In this document: one piece after another, positions 29,007 to 59,124 of the stretch
Layout: every line of letters begins with the position of its first letter
Numbering within the stretch: position 1 is the stretch's first letter
DNA from: Clostridiales bacterium
GTDB taxonomy: Bacteria; Bacillota; Sulfobacillia; CADDZV01
NCBI GenBank assembly: GCA_902812875.1
Contig: CADDZV010000004.1
Location: 1-64,000 of the forward strand
DNA: 64,000 bases
Reading direction: 5' to 3'
Translations under genes and position numbers: made by a program
The notes under the pieces: model-generated
The model's input: the letters and a program-made list of their open reading frames with translations, nothing else
What the model was told of the DNA's origin: nothing
Databases searched by the model: none

Positions 29007-29681
29007 CTAGGCATTTTGAGCCGGTCCATGGAGGACCTGCTCCAAGAGCGATTCTTTACCACGGCGGACCAAAGCCAACACCAAGTCATTCTTGTGCAGG
29101 GTAGTATTCCCATGCGGGACCAGGACATCGTCACCCTGCACAATCCCCACCAGAACGCACTCGTCCGGAAGGTCGAGGTCGCGCACCCGCACTCCCACCG
29201 CAGGCGAAGAACCTTCCAGGGCGATTTCCACCAGTGCCAGGTTCCCACGCTTGAGCAGGGCCACAGGCGTCACCTCGGCGGTCTCCACTTCCTGTACCAC
29301 CAGGCTGTAAATGATCCTTGTACTGCTGATAGTAGCTGTGATTCCTAGTTTCCCAAAGATTTCTTCATTCTTGGGGTTGTTAACGCGTGAGACGACCCGT
29401 GGCACATGGAAGTAACGCTGGGCGATCTGGCAGATGACCAGGTTCGTCTCGTCCTTGCCTGACACCGCCACCAACGCATCCGCCCGGGCAGCACCCGCCA
29501 TTTCCAGTGTGTGGAGCTCCGAACCATCGCCGAGGAAGCAGGCATCGTCGCCGAGCAACCGCCGCAGCCCCTCGTACCGTGCCGCGTCGCGCTCAATCAC
29601 CAGCACTTCGTGCTGCTCGGCCACCAGGGTGGAAGCAAGATGGTAGCCGACCTTGCCGCCCCCCACAACTATGACGTACAT
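29007..29681 (-). CDS. TrkA-family RCK protein with N and C domains
   Basis: The 224-residue cytosolic protein has a Rossmann RCK-N domain (YVIVVGGGKVGYHLA, acidic residue at the end of strand 2 in VIERD) and a TrkA-C domain from about residue 140 (VALLKRGNLALVEI, LVPHGNTTLHKNDLVLALV). Such proteins bind NAD(H) or nucleotides and gate K+ transporters. There is no TrkH/KtrB gene nearby; instead the operon starts with an APC permease. A similar APC-plus-two-RCK arrangement exists in actinobacteria (CeoB/CeoC). It overlaps the upstream RCK gene by 13 bp. Confidence 0.9.
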   Translation of the reverse strand: MYVIVVGGGKVGYHLASTLVAEQHEVLVIERDAARYEGLRRLLGDDACFLGDGSELHTLEMAGAARADALVAVSGKDETNLVICQIAQRYFHVPRVVSRVNNPKNEEIFGKLGITATISSTRIIYSLVVQEVETAEVTPVALLKRGNLALVEIALEGSSPAVGVRVRDLDLPDECVLVGIVQGDDVLVPHGNTTLHKNDLVLALVRRGKESLLEQVLHGPAQNA

Positions 29682-30094
29682 TGGCTATCCTCCTTTGCCC
29701 GGGCGATCGCCTCTGCGAAGGCCTCTACCGCGAGAGAAGTCGTGCAAATGAGCGAAAAGCCATCCGCCGCGAACACACCGGCTTTCGCTGGCTCGTATAT
29801 CCGCACCAGCACGTTCTCGATGCCGAACTGGAGTTTTGCGACCTGGGCGGCCATGAGGTTCGTGGCGTCCGATCCCGTGGTCGCAATGAAAAGCGAGCAC
29901 TCACGCGCGCCTGCCCTGGCCAGCACTTCCGTGTCGATACCGGTGCCGCTGATCGTATGCCCGCGGAAGTCGTCGCCCAGGCGGCGGAACGCCGTCGGGT
30001 TGTAATCGACCACGGTAACGTCCTCGCCCGCGTCTGTCAGGCGGCGAGCCAGCATCGACCCCAACATTCCACAACCGACGACAATAACGTGCAC
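29669..30094 (-). CDS. Single-domain RCK (TrkA-N) protein
   Basis: The 141-residue protein is an RCK-N Rossmann domain only: HVIVVGCGMLGSMLARRL, VVDYNP, then GARECSLFIATTGSDATNLMAAQVA. The TrkA-C domain is missing compared with its neighbour. The GTG at 30094 follows AAGGGGG by 7 bases, four bases after the UspA stop. It may heterodimerise with the two-domain RCK protein encoded next. That is an inference from the overlap and paired arrangement. Confidence 0.88.
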   Translation of the reverse strand: MHVIVVGCGMLGSMLARRLTDAGEDVTVVDYNPTAFRRLGDDFRGHTISGTGIDTEVLARAGARECSLFIATTGSDATNLMAAQVAKLQFGIENVLVRIYEPAKAGVFAADGFSLICTTSLAVEAFAEAIARAKEDSQCTS

Positions 30095-30098
30095 AAAC

Positions 30099-30671
30099 TT
30101 ACCCCCTTGCTGGTTTTGCCCGCGCCGGGCGCCGCACCAGTACCTGGCACGGCGCGTGCCTAAGGACAAACTCGGCACTGCTGCCGAAAAGCCTATCTTC
30201 CATGCCCAGATGCTCAGAGGCACCCAGGATGATGGTCCGGGTCGGTTCGTGCAACGAAGCGTCCACGATCGCCCGGCCTGCCTTGCGTCCGCGGCGGATC
30301 ACGTACCGCACAGTGGTATCATACTCGGCCGCGATCGCGCGGGCACGCTCCTCCGCCTTGCGTGCCCGTTCGTCCTCCTCCGGTATGGGCGCATCCAACG
30401 GAAGGGTGAACGGCACCTCCGTCACGTACATGGCGGTGACCGGTGCGTTTTCTTGCCTACCAAGCTCGCAGGCCAGCCGGAGGAGGTCTTCCGCCCCCCA
30501 GGCAACGTGAAATCCCACCAGGATCTGGCCGGCTTCCAAAGCCGCCTCCACCGCCGGGGCCTCTTCCTCAGCCTTGGGCGGGTGCAGCATCCACCACAGG
30601 ATAGATCCCACGCTGGTTACGAATACCACTGCCAGAACAATACCGAACGGATGCAATTGTGCTTCAGGCAT
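30099..30671 (-). CDS. Membrane-anchored universal stress (UspA-like) protein
   Basis: The 190-residue protein has an N-terminal transmembrane helix (about residues 10-29), an Ala/Glu-rich linker and a cytosolic UspA domain. The nucleotide-binding end is recognisable as ILGASEHLGMEDRLFGSSAEFVL and HAPCQVLV. Most UspA proteins are soluble, so the anchor is notable and suggests contact with the membrane transporter of the same operon. The ATG at 30671 sits within the end of the upstream small gene, behind GGGAGG. Confidence 0.88.
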   Translation of the reverse strand: MPEAQLHPFGIVLAVVFVTSVGSILWWMLHPPKAEEEAPAVEAALEAGQILVGFHVAWGAEDLLRLACELGRQENAPVTAMYVTEVPFTLPLDAPIPEEDERARKAEERARAIAAEYDTTVRYVIRRGRKAGRAIVDASLHEPTRTIILGASEHLGMEDRLFGSSAEFVLRHAPCQVLVRRPARAKPARG

Positions 30672-30883: not shown

Positions 30884-32434
30884 CTACTCGTCGCCGCCGG
30901 CCTCCTCCTGGCTCACTTTCGCCGCCTGTCGTGCCTGGCGCCGGGCCAGGGCCGCCTCGTACTGCCGCAGTAGTCTGTGCTCACCCGCAGACCTCAGCAC
31001 CTCGCGCTGCTCAGTCTCCCAGTCTCTTGCCACCGTGCCCAACAGCGGCAAGCCTGCACGGCGGCGATGGTAGAAATAGAAGGCCCAACCGATCACAAGC
31101 CAAGCCGGGCCGGCTATACGGCCGATCGCATGTGTCCACATCACCAATACCCAAATGGCTACCGTACCAATCAGGCCGACGATGCCGAGTACCGGCACCT
31201 CCACCGTGTCGCCACGGTACGTTACCTTGAGGTTGAGCGGCGTCTTGTAGGCCCGCGGGGAATCGGGATCCAGAAAACGTAGCCGGATAAGTGAGATCAT
31301 CACCAATACGTAGCCGCTCACAGCTCCGAACGCATACATGTTTCCGAGCGTGTCGTACGCGTTGGAGCTCAACGACGCCAGCACAATCTGCAGGGCAGCC
31401 AAACTGGAAAACACGATGATCGTCCGGTACGGTGTGCGGAACTTGGAGTGGAGGGCAGAGAACCATTGCGGCAAAAGGCCGAGCTTACTCATCGACCATG
31501 TGATACGAGAATAACCCATGATGCCGGTGTTGGTAGACGCCAGCACCAAGGTGGCTGCCAGCAGCGCGGTGAACGGCCCGGCAATGAACCCGATGAACGG
31601 GATGTGATGCGCGAGCACCGCAATGGGGTCGCCCTGGTTCTGGGCGATTACCTGCCACGGCAAGACACCCAAGCCCAACGTCGAAAACGACAGGGCATAG
31701 ATCACCACAGTGAAGATCAGTGCCAAGGAGGTCCTGGGAACCACCGTGGCCGGACGCAAGGTCTCTTCCGCCGCCTGCGAGATGGACTCCAGCCCGACGA
31801 AAGAAATAATGGCAATGGAAGCCCCGTACAGGAAGTCATGGGTAGAGGGGAATTGGGTCACGAACTGGTGGGCGAAAAAAGACGGATTGAACGCGAACAG
31901 GAACCCGAACAAGATAATCGTTGACTCCGAAACCATGTCCACAGCCCCGATTACTTCGTTCAGCCAGGACGACTCCCGAATTCCACGCAAATTGACCGAG
32001 GCCAGGAACACAACCACGACGAGCCCTTCGATAGCCAGCCACGGCTGGTGTTGTAATCCCGGGAAAAAAAAGTTGATGTAGCCTGCCGTCGACAGGGCAA
32101 AAAGCGAAACATCGATGGTGAAATCCAACAGGAGGGCCCAGCCAGCAGTAAAACCAAAAATATCCCCGAGGCCCCGCAGGGTATAGTACTGTCCTCCCCC
32201 GGCCACGGGGTAGGTAGAAGCCAGCTCGGTATAAGCGAGACCAATCAACATGTATACAGCCCCGGTGATGGCAAACGCCAGCGGCGTGGCACCCTGGGCG
32301 GCCATCGCCACCAGCCCCAGGGCTACATAGACGTCAGCTCCGACGTCTGCATAGCCCCATGTGAACGATCCCCAGATGCTGACTACCCGACGGAGTCCGG
32401 TGGTAATTTCCGTGCCCTCCGCGTTGCCAGACAA
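30884..32434 (-). CDS. APC superfamily amino acid/cation permease
   Basis: A polytopic transporter of about 516 residues and 12 helices. The first helices carry FAITGAVYMLIGLAYTELASTYPVAGG, and SFVGLESISQAAEETLRPATVVPR near helix 6 is typical of APC permeases. The substrate is unknown. The C-terminal tail of about 60 residues is charged. The start is uncertain: TTG at 32434 follows a G-rich stretch and lies after a leader hairpin, while a GTG at 32485 lies inside that hairpin and lacks a ribosome binding site. It heads the cluster with UspA and RCK proteins, which suggests regulated transport, possibly of K+ or an amino acid. Confidence 0.88.
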   Translation of the reverse strand: MSGNAEGTEITTGLRRVVSIWGSFTWGYADVGADVYVALGLVAMAAQGATPLAFAITGAVYMLIGLAYTELASTYPVAGGGQYYTLRGLGDIFGFTAGWALLLDFTIDVSLFALSTAGYINFFFPGLQHQPWLAIEGLVVVVFLASVNLRGIRESSWLNEVIGAVDMVSESTIILFGFLFAFNPSFFAHQFVTQFPSTHDFLYGASIAIISFVGLESISQAAEETLRPATVVPRTSLALIFTVVIYALSFSTLGLGVLPWQVIAQNQGDPIAVLAHHIPFIGFIAGPFTALLAATLVLASTNTGIMGYSRITWSMSKLGLLPQWFSALHSKFRTPYRTIIVFSSLAALQIVLASLSSNAYDTLGNMYAFGAVSGYVLVMISLIRLRFLDPDSPRAYKTPLNLKVTYRGDTVEVPVLGIVGLIGTVAIWVLVMWTHAIGRIAGPAWLVIGWAFYFYHRRRAGLPLLGTVARDWETEQREVLRSAGEHRLLRQYEAALARRQARQAAKVSQEEAGGDE

Positions 32435-32457
32435 CGTACCCAACCCCCCGTCCTGGT

Positions 32458-32491
32458 GCACTGGTGCCACGTGCAGACACGGCACCAGTGC
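32458..32491 (-). repeat. 11-bp perfect inverted repeat in APC permease leader
   Basis: GCACTGGTGCC (32458-32468) and its exact reverse complement (32481-32491) are separated by 12 bases that can add a further short GTG/CAC pairing. It lies downstream of the candidate promoter and just before the TTG start. It could be an operator or an RNA hairpin controlling access to the ribosome binding site. Confidence 0.6.
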
Positions 32492-39525: not shown

Positions 39526-39616
39526 CGCGCCACGGGCCTCCTTTTTCGCACCCTTGTGCACACGCCTTCAATAACTTGCCGTCCTTATGCAAAACCTAGG
39601 CAGCGAGGTGAGGACC

Positions 39617-41338
39617 TTGCGGCCGGCCATCCTGCGCACAAAACCTCTCGATGCCTTGTTGGCGGAAACCAAAGAAAAAGGCCACCGGCTCCGCAAGTCA
39701 CTGGGAGCACTCGATCTTACGGCTCTCGGCGTCGGGGCCATTATCGGTACCGGTCTTTTTGTGCTGACGGGTGTGGCCGCGGCCCGGTATGCCGGACCGG
39801 CGGTGATCGTGTCGTTTACGGTGTCCGGCCTGGCCGCCGTCCTCACCGCCCTCGTTTACGCAGAGCTCGCCTCGATGGTGCCCGTCGCCGGCAGTGCATA
39901 CACGTACTCGTATGCCGCCCTGGGCGAAATCTTCGCCTGGATCATCGGCTGGGATCTCATCCTGGAATACACGGTGGCTGCCGGCGCCGTGGCCATCGGC
40001 TGGTCCTCGTATATTCATGATCTTCTGCGGGCGGCCGGCATTAGCCTGCCAGCCTGGGCCACTGCCCCGCCCACCGCTGGCGGACTATTAAATCTGCCGG
40101 CCATATTCATAGTGGCAGTCATCACCGGCGTGCTCATCTGGGGTACACGGGAGGGAGCAGAGGTCACACGGGTGATTGTCGCGATCAAGCTTGCCGTGGT
40201 GGCACTGTTCATCGCCCTGGGCGTCACCCACGTGAGCCCGTCGCTGTGGCGGCCGTTCGCTCCTTTCGGCTGGAGCGGGATCATGCGCGGGGCCGCCATC
40301 ATCTTCTTCGCGTACATCGGCTTCGATGCGGTCTCCACCGCCGCGGAAGAGGTCCGTCACCCCGCCCGCGACCTGCCGCGGGGCATCGTCGCGAGCCTGG
40401 CTATCGCGACGGTGCTGTACTTGGTCGTGGCTGCCATCCTGACGGGCATGGTGCCGTACTACACGCTGAACAACGCTTCCCCCATCGCCAACGCGTTGTG
40501 GGCTGTGGGGGCTGGCTGGGCATCGGCCGTGATCTCCGTGGGTGCGCTCGCGGGGCTTACAAGCGTGCTGCTCGTGAACATTTACGGCCAAAGCCGCGTG
40601 TTCTACGCCATGGCCAGGGACGGACTACTGCCGCCCATTTTTGCCACTTTGAGCCGCCGTTTTGCCACGCCCGCCTTGGACACCGCCATCACTGGGGCCG
40701 CCGTGGCACTCATAGGCGGTTTTCTGCCCATTCAAGTGGTGGCGGAGCTAGCCAACATCGGCACGCTGGCCGCCTTCATCCTCGTCTCGGCCGGGGTAAT
40801 CGTACTACGGCGTACGGCTCCCGACCGCCCCCGCCCCTTCCGCACGCCAGGCGTGCCGTACGTGCCGGGGCTGGCCATCGCGTTTTCGCTGTACTTGATG
40901 ATCAGCCTGCCGCGCCTTACTTGGATACGGTTTCTTGCCTGGCTGGCCATCGGCCAGGTCATCTACTTCCTGTATGGGCGCCGGCACAGCTTGCTGGCAG
41001 CGGACCGCCCGGTGGGGCGGGCCGCGGTTCCCGCCGCCGAAAAAGGCAGGGGCGCCATACCTCCGCGGGTGCCGGTGTTCGACATGGAGGCTGGCACCAT
41101 GGGTATAAGCTCGAACGGGGTGACCACACTAGAACGGGAGGTGAGGTCAGTGGCACTTGATGGCGTTTCCTGTTCGGTTACCGCTTGTGCGTTTTGGGCC
41201 AGTGGCAACCGCTGCAACGCACCCAGCATCAAGGTTGACGTGAGCGCCGGCAGCACCAACATGGAAGTGGGCACCATCGGCGACAAAAACGTGCGGCGCT
41301 CGGAGGACACCTGTTGCCGTACCTTCAAGCCTAAATAA
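39617..41338 (+). CDS. APC permease with C-terminal DUF1540 domain
   Basis: The permease part (about residues 1-470) is of the cationic amino acid transporter/YfnA type: LDLTALGVGAIIGTGLFVLTG, VYAELASMVPVAGSAYTYSYA and FAYIGFDAVSTAAEEVRHP. After a 40-50-residue hydrophilic linker, the last 60 residues form a DUF1540 cysteine domain (SCSVTACAFW, RCNAPSIKV, DTCCRTFK). No stop codon separates them. TTG at 39617 was preferred because GAGGTGA lies 5 bases upstream; an in-frame ATG at 39587 lacks such a site. The substrate is unknown. The cysteine domain may be read through as a fusion or made separately from an internal start. Confidence 0.82.
   Translation: MRPAILRTKPLDALLAETKEKGHRLRKSLGALDLTALGVGAIIGTGLFVLTGVAAARYAGPAVIVSFTVSGLAAVLTALVYAELASMVPVAGSAYTYSYAALGEIFAWIIGWDLILEYTVAAGAVAIGWSSYIHDLLRAAGISLPAWATAPPTAGGLLNLPAIFIVAVITGVLIWGTREGAEVTRVIVAIKLAVVALFIALGVTHVSPSLWRPFAPFGWSGIMRGAAIIFFAYIGFDAVSTAAEEVRHPARDLPRGIVASLAIATVLYLVVAAILTGMVPYYTLNNASPIANALWAVGAGWASAVISVGALAGLTSVLLVNIYGQSRVFYAMARDGLLPPIFATLSRRFATPALDTAITGAAVALIGGFLPIQVVAELANIGTLAAFILVSAGVIVLRRTAPDRPRPFRTPGVPYVPGLAIAFSLYLMISLPRLTWIRFLAWLAIGQVIYFLYGRRHSLLAADRPVGRAAVPAAEKGRGAIPPRVPVFDMEAGTMGISSNGVTTLEREVRSVALDGVSCSVTACAFWASGNRCNAPSIKVDVSAGSTNMEVGTIGDKNVRRSEDTCCRTFKPK
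41150..41338 (+). CDS. DUF1540 domain protein, possible separate product from in-frame internal start
   Basis: GTG at 41150 lies 8 bases after GGGAGG (within GGGAGGTGAGG), a near-perfect ribosome binding site inside the permease frame. Initiation there would give a 62-residue protein that is exactly the DUF1540 unit: five cysteines placed as CSVTAC, RCNA and TCCRTF. DUF1540 proteins in Bacillota are usually small stand-alone proteins of unknown, possibly metal-binding, function. This supports a separate or additional product, but expression cannot be seen from sequence. Confidence 0.6.
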   Translation: MALDGVSCSVTACAFWASGNRCNAPSIKVDVSAGSTNMEVGTIGDKNVRRSEDTCCRTFKPK

Positions 41339-46655: not shown

Positions 46656-47162
46656 TCAAGCCTTGGCCGGTTTGTCGCTATCCGCCTCCGGCCTCCGCCC
46701 GCCGGTGATGTCGAAATTCGGCGGGGCAAACAGGAAAATGCCGCCCCCTAGAACCTGGGTTGTCCCCCCGAGGGCATAGGCGACCCCGGACATGAAATCC
46801 ACGATACGCCGGGCGATTTCTTTCTCGCACCGTTCAAAATTCAACACCACCGGGCGCCTCGCTACCAGGTTGTCCGCAAACACCTGGACCTCTTCGAAAG
46901 ACTGCGGTTCCAGCACCAGGATGTGCACACGGTCAGACCCTGGGAACGAGACGACGTTGCCGCGGTTGCGCTCCACCGGCGGCCGTGCCTGGCGATGCTC
47001 GTAGACCCTTCCCCCCAGTGCAGACGCGTCCGCGTTCGGCCGGGCCGGGCCCCAGATGTCGGGGTCTTGCGCCGGCGGCTCTGGTACAGGTGGCTCGGCC
47101 TCCGGAATCTCTTCGCGCTCAAACCCCAACGCACTGAGGACTTTCTCCCACAGGGATGCCAT
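46656..47162 (-). CDS. sepF: SepF cell-division protein
   Basis: The 168-residue protein anchors and arranges FtsZ filaments. It has an N-terminal amphipathic membrane helix (ASLWEKVLSALGF), an acidic/proline-rich linker, and the SepF core from about residue 75: VHILVLEPQSFEEVQVFADNL, RRPVVLNFE and LGGGIFLFAPPNFDI. The ATG at 47162 has GGGAGG upstream. It lies directly after ylmE. Confidence 0.95.
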   Translation of the reverse strand: MASLWEKVLSALGFEREEIPEAEPPVPEPPAQDPDIWGPARPNADASALGGRVYEHRQARPPVERNRGNVVSFPGSDRVHILVLEPQSFEEVQVFADNLVARRPVVLNFERCEKEIARRIVDFMSGVAYALGGTTQVLGGGIFLFAPPNFDITGGRRPEADSDKPAKA

Positions 47163-47169
47163 GGCTATT

Positions 47170-47862
47170 TTACCTCCCTGCCCGAGGGCCAAATATGGCT
47201 GTGCCGATACGGACCATGGTAGCCCCCTCTTCGATTGCCACCACGTAGTCCGCACTCATACCCATGGACAATATTCGTGCCGGAGCGTGCGGAAATCCAC
47301 AGCTTTCGATTTCGGCTTGCAACGCTCGCATCCGCCGGAAAAACGGCCGCGACGATTCCGGGTCGGGACCGGCCGGAGGCACCGCCATCAGGCCTTCCAC
47401 TCTGAGATGAGGAAACTCCCTTAACCCTTCGACAAACGACACCGCCGCGGCCGGATCTACCCCGCCCTTGGTGCTTTCCATTCCGATGTTGACCTCGACC
47501 AAGACCGGCAGTACAAGGCCGCGAGCAGAAGCCTCCCGTTCGATGGCGGCGGCGATGTCCAAAGAATCGACCGACTGGATGACATCGAAAAGGGACACCG
47601 CCGCCTTGACCTTGTTCCGCTGCAGCCGCCCAATCATGTGCCAATGGACGTCGAGGTCGCCGAGCTCCCTTTTTTTGTCCGCAGCCTCCTGTACTCTATT
47701 CTCACCGATGTCGCGAATGCCTGCTGCCACGGCCGCCCGCACGAGCTCCGGGGGTTGGGTCTTTGTGGCAGCCACGACTACAACACGCCGCCCCCGGGCG
47801 GCATCCTGCACCTGATCCAGCACCAGGATCACATTGCGTCTTACGGCCTCTTCCGCGTCCAT
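47170..47862 (-). CDS. ylmE: YggS/YlmE-family PLP homeostasis protein
   Basis: The 230-residue PLP-binding TIM-barrel protein has the cofactor Lys in VVAATKTQ, then IGENRVQEA, HMIGRLQRNK, VNIGMESTKGG and SMGMSADY. Such proteins control free PLP pools and amino acid balance and have no known catalytic turnover. It lies between the HlyD-like gene (4 bp) and sepF (7 bp). Confidence 0.94.
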   Translation of the reverse strand: MDAEEAVRRNVILVLDQVQDAARGRRVVVVAATKTQPPELVRAAVAAGIRDIGENRVQEAADKKRELGDLDVHWHMIGRLQRNKVKAAVSLFDVIQSVDSLDIAAAIEREASARGLVLPVLVEVNIGMESTKGGVDPAAAVSFVEGLREFPHLRVEGLMAVPPAGPDPESSRPFFRRMRALQAEIESCGFPHAPARILSMGMSADYVVAIEEGATMVRIGTAIFGPRAGR

Positions 47863-54133: not shown

Positions 54134-54907
54134 CTAGACGAACTTGCGCATCCGGTGGAGGGCAGCCTTCTCCAGGCGTGACACCTGCGCCTGGGAGATA
54201 CCGATCTCCTCGGCTACCTCCATCTGTGTTTTACCCTCGAAAAACCGCAGCTGCAGGATGGTCCTTTCCCGCTCGGACAGCCTGGCCATGGCCTCCTTGA
54301 TGGCAACGCCCTCGAGCCAGTTGCTGTCGAGGTTTTTCTCGTCCTTGATCTGGTCCATGACGTACAGGGGGTCACCGCCGTCGTGATAAATGGGATCAAA
54401 CAGCGAGATCGGTTCCTGGATGGCTTCCATGGCGCTGACAATCTCTTCCCGGCTGATCCCGAGCTCGCTCGCGATCTCTTCCACCGTCGGGTCCCGTCCC
54501 ACCCGCGCGACCAGAGCGTCCCGCACCTGCAACGCCTTATAAGCCACGTCCCGCAGCGACCGGGATACACGGATGGGGTTGTTGTCACGGAGGTAACGCC
54601 GGATCTCGCCAATGATCATGGGCACGGCGTATGTGGAGAACCGCACGTTCTGGTCGAGGTCAAAATTGTCGATGGCCTTGATGAGCCCGATGCACCCGAC
54701 CTGAAACAGATCGTCCACGTATTCCCCGCGGTTGGTGAACCGTTGGATCACGGACAGGACAAGGCGGAGATTACCCTGCACCAGTTCTTCCCGCGCCTGG
54801 CGGTCGCCGGCCCGCACGCGCATGAAGAGCTCCCGCATGTGGGCATTGGACAGGACGTGCAGTCGCGAGGTGTCAACTCCACAGATTTCCACCTTGTTGG
54901 AAGCCAC
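54134..54907 (-). CDS. sigG: Sporulation sigma factor sigma-G
   Basis: The 257-residue late forespore sigma factor shows the diagnostic start SNKVEICGVDTSRL. Region 2 (NLRLVLSVIQRF, DDLFQVGCIGLIKAIDNFD, TYAVPMIIGEIRRYLRDN) and region 4 (FFEGKTQMEVAEEIGISQAQVSRLEK) are intact. GTG at 54907 was chosen because it aligns with the family start and has GGAGGG 11 bases upstream; TTG at 54916 is the alternative. It follows sigE by 103 bp, as in most spore formers. Confidence 0.95.
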   Translation of the reverse strand: MASNKVEICGVDTSRLHVLSNAHMRELFMRVRAGDRQAREELVQGNLRLVLSVIQRFTNRGEYVDDLFQVGCIGLIKAIDNFDLDQNVRFSTYAVPMIIGEIRRYLRDNNPIRVSRSLRDVAYKALQVRDALVARVGRDPTVEEIASELGISREEIVSAMEAIQEPISLFDPIYHDGGDPLYVMDQIKDEKNLDSNWLEGVAIKEAMARLSERERTILQLRFFEGKTQMEVAEEIGISQAQVSRLEKAALHRMRKFV

Positions 54908-54958
54908 CGCTACCAAACCCTCCGTGTGCTAATTTTACATGTTATAACTTTCTATACT

Positions 54959-54988
54959 AATTATGTCCAAGCGCACGGAGCTTTATAC
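54959..54988 (-). promoter_or_regulatory. Candidate sigma-F (sigma-F/G) promoter of sigG-spoIIR
   Basis: In the sigE-sigG gap the minus strand has GTATA (54988-54984), matching the sigma-F -35 GYWTA, then a 15-bp spacer and GGACATAATT (54968-54959), matching nine of ten positions of GGNRANAMTW. The region is unusually AT-rich for this genome. sigG is known to be sigma-F dependent in B. subtilis. Confidence 0.5.
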
Positions 54989-55010
54989 ATATCGCGGGGA
55001 AGGGCCGCTG

Positions 55011-55727
55011 TTATTGCATGGAAAGGATCTCGAACTTTAGCCTTTTTATTATGCGTTTTTCCAGGCGGGATATATACGACTGTGAAATGCCCATGTAATC
55101 GGCGACCTCTTTCTGGGTATGCTCAATGCCATCCCGCAAACCGAAGCGGAGTTCCATGATTTCGCGTTCGCGCTTGGGCAGTTTTGCCAGGGCGCGGTGC
55201 AACAGCGTGCGGTCTACCTCGTCCTCGATGTCCTTGTGCACGTTCGCATCCGACCGCAAAACATCCGAGAGCAACAGCTCGTTGCCGTCCCAGTCGGCAT
55301 TCAGAGGCTCGTAAAGCGAGACCTCCACGTGGCGGCGGGCGTGGCGGCGAAGGTACATGAGGATCTCGTTCTCGATGCACTTGGAGGCATAGGTAGCCAG
55401 TTTGATGCGTTTGGCCGGGTCGAAGGTGTTGACCGCCTTGATCAGCCCGATCGTGCCGATACTCACCAGGTCCTCCACCGGAACCCCGGCGTTCTCGAAT
55501 TTTTTCGCGATGTAAACCACAAGCCGCAGGTTGTGTTCGATCAAGGTACTGCGGACACCGACCTCGCCCCCTTGCAGGCGGACAAGCAGGCCCCCTTCTT
55601 CTTCGCTGGAAAGCGGCGGTGGCAGCGATTCAGACGAGCCCACATACCAGATAGCCGCGTCTTTCAGCCCCAACCAGTGTAAAAGGGCTTGCCACCACAA
55701 CCACACATGCCGGCGGAAAAAAGACAT
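55011..55727 (-). CDS. sigE: Pro-sigma-E, mother-cell sporulation sigma factor
   Basis: The 238-residue sigma factor precursor has an N-terminal membrane-associating prosequence ([22 protein letters not shown]) before the family sequence [17 protein letters not shown], where SpoIIGA cuts. Region 2 ([47 protein letters not shown]) and region 4 ([30 protein letters not shown]) are typical. ATG at 55727 has GAGGTGG upstream. It lies 40 bp after spoIIGA. Confidence 0.96.
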
Positions 55728-55767
55728 GCCACCCACCTCTTGTGCGAAGGAATGGTACCGTCGATGT

Positions 55768-56652
55768 TTACGCGTCAGATGCTAGCGTGGCAGGGAGCAA
55801 GGCACTGTAGCTCCCGTCCTGGGAAAGCGGTTCGTCGTAAATCCCGATCACGATGTCACTCAGCCGCCGCGGGCCGTCTGGTCCGGAAAGTATCACGTAG
55901 TCAGGGCGGAAACCCAAGAGCAGTCCCTGTCGGCCCAGCGAACGATAAGGCACCAGCCGCAACGGAAACGGCCGGCCGCCCTCTTCCCAAAGCGGGCCGA
56001 GCAGGTCGATCCCACCGGCCACGAAATCGGATAGGCTGCCGTCCGGCAAAAGACCGCGCACCGCCGCCCGTTCAACTACCATCACCGGAAGGGCGGTGTG
56101 GGGATCTTTCAGCTGGTTACCGCTGTCCACGAGGGCACGCACCGTGCAGGCGCGGCCTCGCACGTGCACCTCCGCATCCACGAACACCGGTCCCCGCCGC
56201 CGGTGCGCCCACAGCCTGGCAAGTAGCCGCACAAACACGCCGGCCACCACCACCCCGAGCACTAAGGTGGACGCCGGCACGAAACCCCTGGCCCACCACA
56301 CCAGTTCGCTCATCCCTACGGACGAAGCGGCTACCGCGGCGCCCGCGACGATAAACCCGGCGGCGTAGTACCAGGCCACAAGGCGGACAAAACGCACCCA
56401 CGGGACGGGATAGGCCACGTAAACCATGAGGAGGGAAACAGCAATCAACACGGGCCAGGACGAGAGTGCGGGCCAGCCGGCGACCACGCACACGGAAGCG
56501 TAGAAGCCACCGAGACCTGCCCCCAGGACGAGCCTCACAAGACGCCCGTTCTCTCCTGACAGCCGGCCGCAAGCCCAAAGCAAGACGAGGTCCACTGCGA
56601 AGTTGACGAGCAGGTAAACGTCAATGTACACGACCAGGGGCTCGCCCGGCAT
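55768..56652 (-). CDS. spoIIGA: SpoIIGA, sigma-E processing aspartic peptidase
   Basis: The 294-residue protein has five N-terminal transmembrane helices (from [20 protein letters not shown]) and a C-terminal pepsin-like half-domain with the active-site motif [12 protein letters not shown]. It cleaves pro-sigma-E when activated by SpoIIR. The ATG at 56652 follows GGGAGG; upstream open frame was excluded. All three members of the signalling pathway (SpoIIR, SpoIIGA, pro-sigma-E) are encoded within 3.3 kb. Confidence 0.94.
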
Positions 56653-56724
56653 GGTCCCGTCCTCCCGCCCAGGACTTTGATTAACCATGTGTATGTCCTG
56701 GCGAGAAAAGTTTAGAACCAGCGG

Positions 56725-56745
56725 CCAGCCGGATTTGTCGGCTGG
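56725..56745 (-). repeat. 7-bp stem-loop in the ftsZ-spoIIGA gap
   Basis: CCAGCCG and CGGCTGG pair perfectly around a 7-base loop in the 149-bp gap between ftsZ and spoIIGA. The downstream minus-strand sequence is only mildly T-rich, so it may be a weak terminator separating vegetative division genes from sporulation genes. Confidence 0.35.
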
Positions 56746-56801
56746 TGCGAGCCCCGGAACGAAATTTTCAGCCACAAACCTCTATGCTTCGCTTTCGCCG
56801 C

Positions 56802-57890
56802 CTAGGACTTGTGGCGCCGCAGGAACGTCGGGATGTCGAGATCATCCGTGGGCAGGTTCTTTGGCACCTGCAACTCATCCAACCCGAGGTCGCGGCGGGC
56901 GTGCGTGCGGCCGTCAAAACCGGTCGCGATAACCGTGATCATGACTTCGTCTTTCATCTCCGGGTCGATCACGGCGCCGAAGATGATGTTGGCGTCCGCG
57001 TGGGCGGCCTGGTGGATGACGTCAGCGGCTTCGTTGACCTCGAAGAGCGACAGATCCTCACCACCGGTGATGTTCAGCAGCACCCCGCGTGCACCTTCGA
57101 TGGAGGTCTCCAGGAGCGGACTTGAAATCGCGGCCTGCGCTGCCGCTGCCGAGCGTCCTTCCCCGCTGGCCCGGCCAATGCCCATCAGAGCCGCTCCTTG
57201 CTCGCTCATGATGCTTCGCACATCGGCAAAGTCGAGGTTGATCAGGCCGGGCTTTGAGATGAGGTCGGAAATCCCCTGTACCGCCTGGCGTAAAACGTCG
57301 TCCGCCATGCGGAAGGATTCCTGCAAGGTAGTGTGTTTGTCGACAATCTTGAGCAGACGGTCGTTTGGAATGGTGATCAGCGTGTCCACCTTGTCTTTGA
57401 GGGCTGCCAGTCCCTGCTCCGCCTGGGCCTGCCGCCGTTTGCCCTCAAAGCTGAACGGCTTGGTCACGATCCCGACGGTCAGGGCCCCGGTTTCACGGGC
57501 ACATTCCGCCACAATGGGCGCCGCGCCCGTCCCCGTACCGCCGCCCATGCCAGCCGTGATAAAAACCATGTCCGCACCGCGTAGGACGCTGATGATACTC
57601 TCGCGGCTCTCCTCGGCAGCCTGCCGGCCGACCTCTGGGTTCCCCCCAGCCCCCAGGCCGCGAGTCAGCTTTTCGCCGAGCTGGATTTTGATCTGGGCGT
57701 CCGAGTGGGCAAGTGCCTGGGCGTCCGTGTTCAGGCTTATAAACTCCACTGCCTTGAGACCAGACGCAATCATGCGGTTGACCGCATTCGACCCGCCGCC
57801 TCCTACACCCACCACTTTCAGCGCCGCGAACTTCTGCGGCTCGAGCTCAAGATCCAACACGCCGTTCCCCTCCTCACCCGGTACGTTCAT
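56802..57890 (-). CDS. ftsZ: Cell division GTPase FtsZ
   Basis: The 362-residue tubulin homologue polymerises at midcell (or near poles in sporulation). The nucleotide motif [13 protein letters not shown], tubulin signature [11 protein letters not shown], the T7-loop ([11 protein letters not shown]) and the C-terminal peptide [11 protein letters not shown] that binds FtsA/SepF are present. It follows ftsA by 4 bp. Confidence 0.97.
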
Positions 57891-57894
57891 GCCA

Positions 57895-59124
57895 CTAGAA
57901 CCACTGCGTCAGGAATTCCCATATCCTGGAAAGCATGCCATCTTCGTGCCGCCGGTTCGACACGCCCTGGTTGGACTGGCTGGCGAGCCCAGCCCCGTAT
58001 TGCAAGAGCCCCACCGCACTTGCATGTGCCGGATCGGCCAGCATGTCCGCCATCGACCCAAGCGGATCGGGGCGCCCCAACCGCACGGGCAGGTTATACA
58101 CTTTCTCTGCCAGCTCGCGGAAGCCGCGGAGCCCCGCGCTACCCCCGGTGAGAACCACCCCAGAGGGCACCGCGGTACGAAGCCCGGCCGGCATGAGCCG
58201 GTCGGCTACCATACTCAGGATCTCTTCGGCCCGGGGCTGGATTATCCTGGCCAGTACTGCTTGTGAAAGTTGGCGACCATCGCTGCCAGGTCCGGACAGG
58301 CTGATCATCTCGTCGTCGGCGGCCCATTCCTCGAGGGCCACGCCGTGGGATTTTTTGATCTCCTCCGCCTGCGGAATCGGAAGGCGCAGCCCTACCGATA
58401 TGTCGGAGGTGATGTTGTCACCGCCGAGCGGCACCACACCTACCCAGCGCAGCATGCCGCCTTCGAACCACGCGAAGTCCGTCGTGCCGGCACCGGCGTC
58501 GATCACCACGGTGCCGGCTTCCCGCTCCGCCTCCGAGAGCACGGCCCGCCCCGCCGCCATAGAGCTCAAAACAATGTCGTCGACAGCCAGGCCGGCCCTT
58601 TCCACGGTTCTGATCACGTTCTGGATCGCGTTTTGGCTGCCGGTCACCACCAGGGCCTGCACTTCCAGCCGGCTCCCCACCATGCCGGTGGGATCGCGGA
58701 TCCCCTCGAACCCGTCCACCAAGAACTGCCTTGGGATGACGTGTACCACCTGCTGGTCTGGACCCAGCGGCACGAGGCGCGCCGCTTCCGTCGCGCGGCT
58801 GATATCGTCGATGGTGATCTCTTTGTCCTCGCGGGCCGTCGCCACCACACCGGAGGAAAACATGGCACCGATATGGCTGCCCGACAGACCCAGGGTGACA
58901 CTGTGCACCGGCACGCCGGACATCTGTTCCGCCTTCTGCACGGCCCGGCGGATGGTGTTGGCGGCCTGCTCAATGTCGACGATGATCCCGCGCTTGATGC
59001 CGGCGCAGGAAACCTCGCCGACGCCCACAATGTCCACGTAACCAGCCGGCTGCACCTGTCCCACCAATACACAGACCTTGCTCGAGCCAAGATCACACGC
59101 CGCCACCGTACGGCGATTGGCCAC
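57895..59124 (-). CDS. ftsA: Cell division actin homologue FtsA
   Basis: The 409-residue actin-family ATPase tethers FtsZ to the membrane. ATP-binding motifs are [28 protein letters not shown] and [12 protein letters not shown]; the SHS2 (1C) domain covers about 85-165. The C-terminal amphipathic helix [12 protein letters not shown] is the membrane anchor. The start is GTG at 59124 behind GGGGGGA. Confidence 0.96.

Follow-up and report, generated by a model that had tools for sequence, protein, structure and literature searches.

An amino acid permease gene and a DUF1540 gene in one open reading frame: most likely two neighbouring genes that ran together recently in one lineage

How a gene for a membrane transporter and a gene for a small cysteine-rich protein come to share one uninterrupted reading frame, and which products such a frame would give, is the question raised by the locus described here. 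It lies in a stretch of 64,000 nucleotides (the window) from an uncultured, spore-forming bacterium, whose draft metagenome-assembled genome (MAG) of 1.85 Mb is in 88 contigs and 96% complete. A preliminary description of the window proposed either a recent gene fusion by loss of a stop codon or a gene-within-gene giving two products.

Results

Organization of the joined frame

The plus-strand frame 39587–41338, read with the bases as assembled, contains no internal stop codon. Its product begins with a complete APC-type permease, continues through about 50 residues of disordered linker and closes with a complete DUF1540 domain (Table 1). The stop-less continuity of the two parts claimed in the preliminary description is therefore confirmed, both by the open frame and by Pfam matches to each part.

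Table 1. Features of the joined locus (positions in the window).
Feature	Position	Strand	Remarks
APC amino acid permease, linker and DUF1540 in one open frame	39587..41338	+	583 aa from ATG 39587
Permease core	39617..41005	+	likely start TTG 39617; confident all-helical model to residue 463
Permease C-terminal tail, predicted disordered	41006..41119	+	motif PxxPVFxME; ancestral stop expected near its end
Candidate sigma-A-like promoter TCGACA-N19-TATAAG, weak	41079..41109	+	long spacer, post hoc
Predicted RNA hairpin sequestering the internal RBS	41119..41182	+	pairs 41132-41143/41164-41175 and 41119-41125/41176-41182
Internal RBS GGGAGGTGAGG	41136..41146	+	from the sequence
DUF1540 gene, GTG start	41150..41338	+	62 aa; cysteines C8, C13, C22, C56

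The permease portion

The Pfam models AA_permease_2 and AA_permease_C cover residues 39–468 (E=3.7e-50 and 5.1e-19), a profile match over the transporter core and the C-terminal module that identifies the protein as an APC permease. The nearest NCBIfam models (BcaP, TIGR00909) give scores under the NCBIfam cut-offs. The TTG codon at 39617 is preceded by GAGGTGAGG and, judged from the sequence, is more likely to be the true permease start than the ATG at 39587; starting there, the fusion would come to 573 residues. In the AlphaFold2 model the permease core is confident and all-helical, and disorder sets in from residue 464 onward. The likeness to the APC permeases (PF13520/PF13906) is a full-length match with orthologues at 57–68% identity. 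These nearer orthologues stop 0–68 residues beyond the last helix, whereas the permease of the window runs on into DUF1540; a few more distant orthologues have longer tails.

A second, distantly related APC permease is encoded at 30887–32485 on the minus strand without any DUF1540. Two tandem TrkA_N proteins (29010–30223, minus strand) overlap by about 13 nt, and no TrkA_C was detected in the one at 29672–30223 on that strand.

The DUF1540 portion

DUF1540 is matched at residues 527–580 (Pfam; E=1.4e-10 in the fusion and 1.3e-12 for the 62-residue piece alone). The scores, 41.6 bits for the fusion and 48 bits for the 62 residues, stand against a gathering cut-off of 22.1, and the match runs over positions 1–40 of the 40 in the profile. 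The domain proper corresponds to 41165–41326 and the TAA stop codon to 41336–41338. Four cysteines of the family (C8, C13, C22 and C56) are invariant in 42 sequences, and all four are present here. The 62-residue protein has the ordinary DUF1540 layout, with the ribosome-binding site (RBS) and GTG where DUF1540 genes usually have them. The fold is poorly predicted (mean pLDDT 48.6), and no PDB sequence match was found. A profile search of the host genome returns this DUF1540 gene and no other.

An alternative DUF1540 start, the ATG at 41099 with GGAGG at 41086–41090, is possible; it is disfavoured, as GTG 41150 has the longer Shine–Dalgarno sequence (SD) and aligns with the DUF1540 starts of relatives. 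The linker was also considered as a conserved part of DUF1540, an idea set aside since the apparent extensions of matches into the linker coincide with the RBS region of free-standing genes.

The exosporium protein CdeA of C. difficile carries DUF1540 (PMC7677010; see also PMC6101409). CdeA and the family as a whole (PF07561) have in common with the present protein a small cysteine-rich domain, four conserved cysteines and an ordinary SD–start layout; the difference is that the present frame stays open upstream and runs on from the permease without a break. The host genome likewise has sporulation genes, with Spo0A-like and SASP genes in the MAG and SpoIIGA and two sigma factors within the window. 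By analogy, the DUF1540 protein may be a cysteine-rich spore-surface protein. DUF1540 proteins have elsewhere been described as CydX-like, with a single transmembrane segment, and as belonging to the bd oxidases of Firmicutes (PMC5322542), a description at odds with the soluble-looking cysteine-rich domain seen here. DUF1540 is also found in two-domain proteins of about 130 aa, at L005 and at L014, and other genomes of the class show paired matches.

The sporulation and division genes of the window lie on the minus strand at 46659–47255 and 54137–59124 and comprise SepF, SpoIIGA, two sigma factors and FtsA. A sigma-A-like promoter (TGGACA-N17-TATAAC) is found at 54969 on the same strand, upstream of the sigma-factor gene 54137–54916.

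Relatives of the two genes

DUF1540 genes occur in 48 of 61 genomes of the class and, the window aside, none is in an open frame longer than 306 aa. Elsewhere in the class and phylum they are free-standing, and at 53 of 61 loci an SD marks the start of the domain; the premise of the preliminary description, that DUF1540 proteins are normally small and independent, thus holds everywhere else examined. Among the matches listed for 399 genomes of the phylum, the longest frames around DUF1540 measure 611, 472 and 355 aa. These and a frame of 235 aa were considered as further fusions; all lack any other Pfam domain and so are probably chance open frames.

No permease–DUF1540 fusion or adjacency was found elsewhere in the class, in the phylum sample or at 80 further permease loci. 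The DUF1540 profile likewise had no match in the flanking DNA retrieved for 92 permease loci. These flanks measured 1.5 kb per side at 12 loci of the class, two of which (L033 and L039) stop at or short of the end of the permease, and at most 4 kb at the other 80. In two contig scans for close sister species, the permease relatives reached no more than about 63% identity, and the 62-residue protein had no relative.

The preliminary description had suggested comparing permease C-termini among relatives, with a stop codon between the two parts in close relatives, together with a sequencing error, counting against its proposals. Stops were indeed found in or before the linker in relatives, but only at about 60–68% identity.

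Probable site of a lost stop codon

The tails of several nearer orthologues read PRPAPxMExAEEP or KPVFEDIEKHN and end at a stop about 6–28 residues later. The tail in the window, PPRVPVFDMEAGTMGISSNG, aligns with these motifs, with PxxPVFxME in common; this similarity points to about 41090–41130 for the lost stop. Codon scores give an in-frame coding signal to about 41105, fall to near zero as far as 41150 and recover inside DUF1540. Several linker codons would become stops by one substitution, and four stops lie between 41106 and 41144 in the +1 phase. A substitution, a one-base indel or a consensus error would each suffice to remove the stop. When the linker stretches are shuffled, 29–62% of the versions are free of in-frame stops; an open linker alone is not improbable.

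The internal ribosome-binding site

The sequence GGAGGTGA occupies 41137–41144 and is followed, after five nucleotides, by the in-frame GTG at 41150–41152. An RBS and GTG at the DUF1540 boundary, opening a frame for a 62-residue product, are therefore present as first described. In the 64 kb, counting both strands, GGAGGTGA is expected about twice and was found seven times. Its position here looks like more than chance: by our own estimate, the probability that it would lie at a workable spacing before this particular start is roughly 1e-4. Coding-like frames with an internal, in-frame 8-mer SD and start number two in 464 kb of the genome (400 kb of it sampled by region), one of them being the present locus. 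The locus thus shows, within a longer coding frame, the SD and start codon that characterize a nested gene. The arrangement is not conserved in the relatives, all of which are outside the host's family.

The SD is covered by a predicted hairpin of -29.1 kcal/mol (z -2.8), with 2 of 200 shuffles as stable; the z-score drops to -0.9 with longer 5' context. Among 51 DUF1540 start regions compared, that of the window is second lowest in folding energy and also second lowest in SD accessibility (0.17, with a median of 0.45), despite a moderate GC content. An RBS held in so stable a predicted hairpin suggests that the internal start probably depends on ribosomes translating the permease. From this model we infer that internal initiation would be poor on free mRNA and would be helped by ribosomes arriving from the permease.

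Sporulation promoters of the sigma-E, -K or -G type before DUF1540 genes show no convincing enrichment in relatives, and none was found in the window. At L143, L153, L158 and L159 the sequences AGCATACAACT or AGCATACATCTT lie about 35–50 nt upstream of DUF1540 genes. They recall the sigma-E -10 element (CATACA); a stricter pattern test gave no confirmation.

Discussion

Origin and expression of the joined frame

The locus is most likely a recent and lineage-specific run-together of two ordinary neighbouring genes, and not a new kind of system. Loss of the permease stop probably joined the two in frame, while DUF1540 kept its own start. An APC permease gene and a small DUF1540 gene, adjacent and co-directional, would have become one reading frame through a loss within about 41090–41149, the stretch that takes in the last permease codons, the spacer and the RBS of DUF1540. 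Ribosomes starting at TTG 39617 would then read to the TAA at 41336 and produce a 573-residue permease with a flexible tail and a terminal DUF1540, and ribosomes initiating at GTG 41150 would produce the ancestral 62-residue protein. The expected output is the 62-residue protein together with some of the 573-residue fusion, the hairpin-bound internal start probably being opened mainly by permease-translating ribosomes.

Both proposals of the preliminary description find a place in this reading. The stop-loss fusion gains support from the orthologues, which stop in or before the linker, and from DUF1540 being separate everywhere else examined. The gene within a gene would follow because the ancestral RBS and start were retained after the stop was lost; free internal initiation is less certain because of the stable predicted hairpin over the RBS.

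An error of sequencing or assembly, with a one-base substitution or indel hiding the permease stop of an ordinary neighbouring gene pair, is unlikely but has to be taken seriously. The genome is a draft MAG in 88 contigs, all permease relatives possess the stop, an indel of a single base would bring back a normal end by way of the four +1-phase stops, and the codons that lie one substitution from a stop would allow the same by a single change. Against this, domain matches to the genes scanned in the window are nearly full-length and show no frame breaks, so that the local error rate looks low and an error less likely; a variant second contig was not seen, the genome search giving a single DUF1540. 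A slim chance attaches to a separate transcription unit, in which DUF1540 is transcribed from its own promoter within the permease tail and its expression owes nothing to the continuity of the frame. The candidate promoter in the tail is one of only four such pairs in the 64 kb (both strands), but its spacer is 19 nt, the criteria were set after the site had been seen and a stricter scan found nothing at its position. Moreover, no promoter type is enriched before the DUF1540 genes of relatives, and the RBS hairpin would persist on such an mRNA.

It is very improbable that the fusion is functional in its own right, with DUF1540 serving as a cytoplasmic module of the permease, for example a metal or redox sensor regulating transport. 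In its favour, both domains are complete and in frame and the four cysteines are kept. Yet the class, the phylum sample and the 80 further permease loci hold no second example, the separate gene's RBS and start remain intact and coding bias is weak across the joining stretch; the free protein would also be lost, this being the only DUF1540 of the genome. There is a small chance that the merger by stop loss has become a stop-less gene-in-gene switch. Translation of the permease would open the hairpin over the RBS, located at the 3' end of the permease's own frame, and ribosomes would either continue, giving a permease with a cysteine-rich tail, or restart, giving the free 62-residue DUF1540 protein. 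Such a switch would tie the 62-residue protein to translation of the transporter.

If the bases are right, the locus captures a gene merger at a very early stage: the RBS and start of the downstream gene are still intact, and relatives show the separate state. Automatic annotation would give one protein of 573–583 residues and so conceal the sole DUF1540 gene of the genome.

Comparison with known systems

Internal in-frame translation yielding a C-terminal product has been shown experimentally for Cas11b from cas8b of Haloferax volcanii (PMC11899642). As in that system, start signals lie within a longer frame and would yield a short C-terminal protein; the putative nested gene here differs in being lineage-specific and in its probable derivation from two separate genes. 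Translationally coupled unidirectional gene pairs (PMC10666635) provide a second comparison, with co-directional neighbours whose translation is possibly linked. Unlike in those pairs, the first gene here has no stop, which leaves no termination–reinitiation, and coupling could act only via opening of the RBS hairpin.
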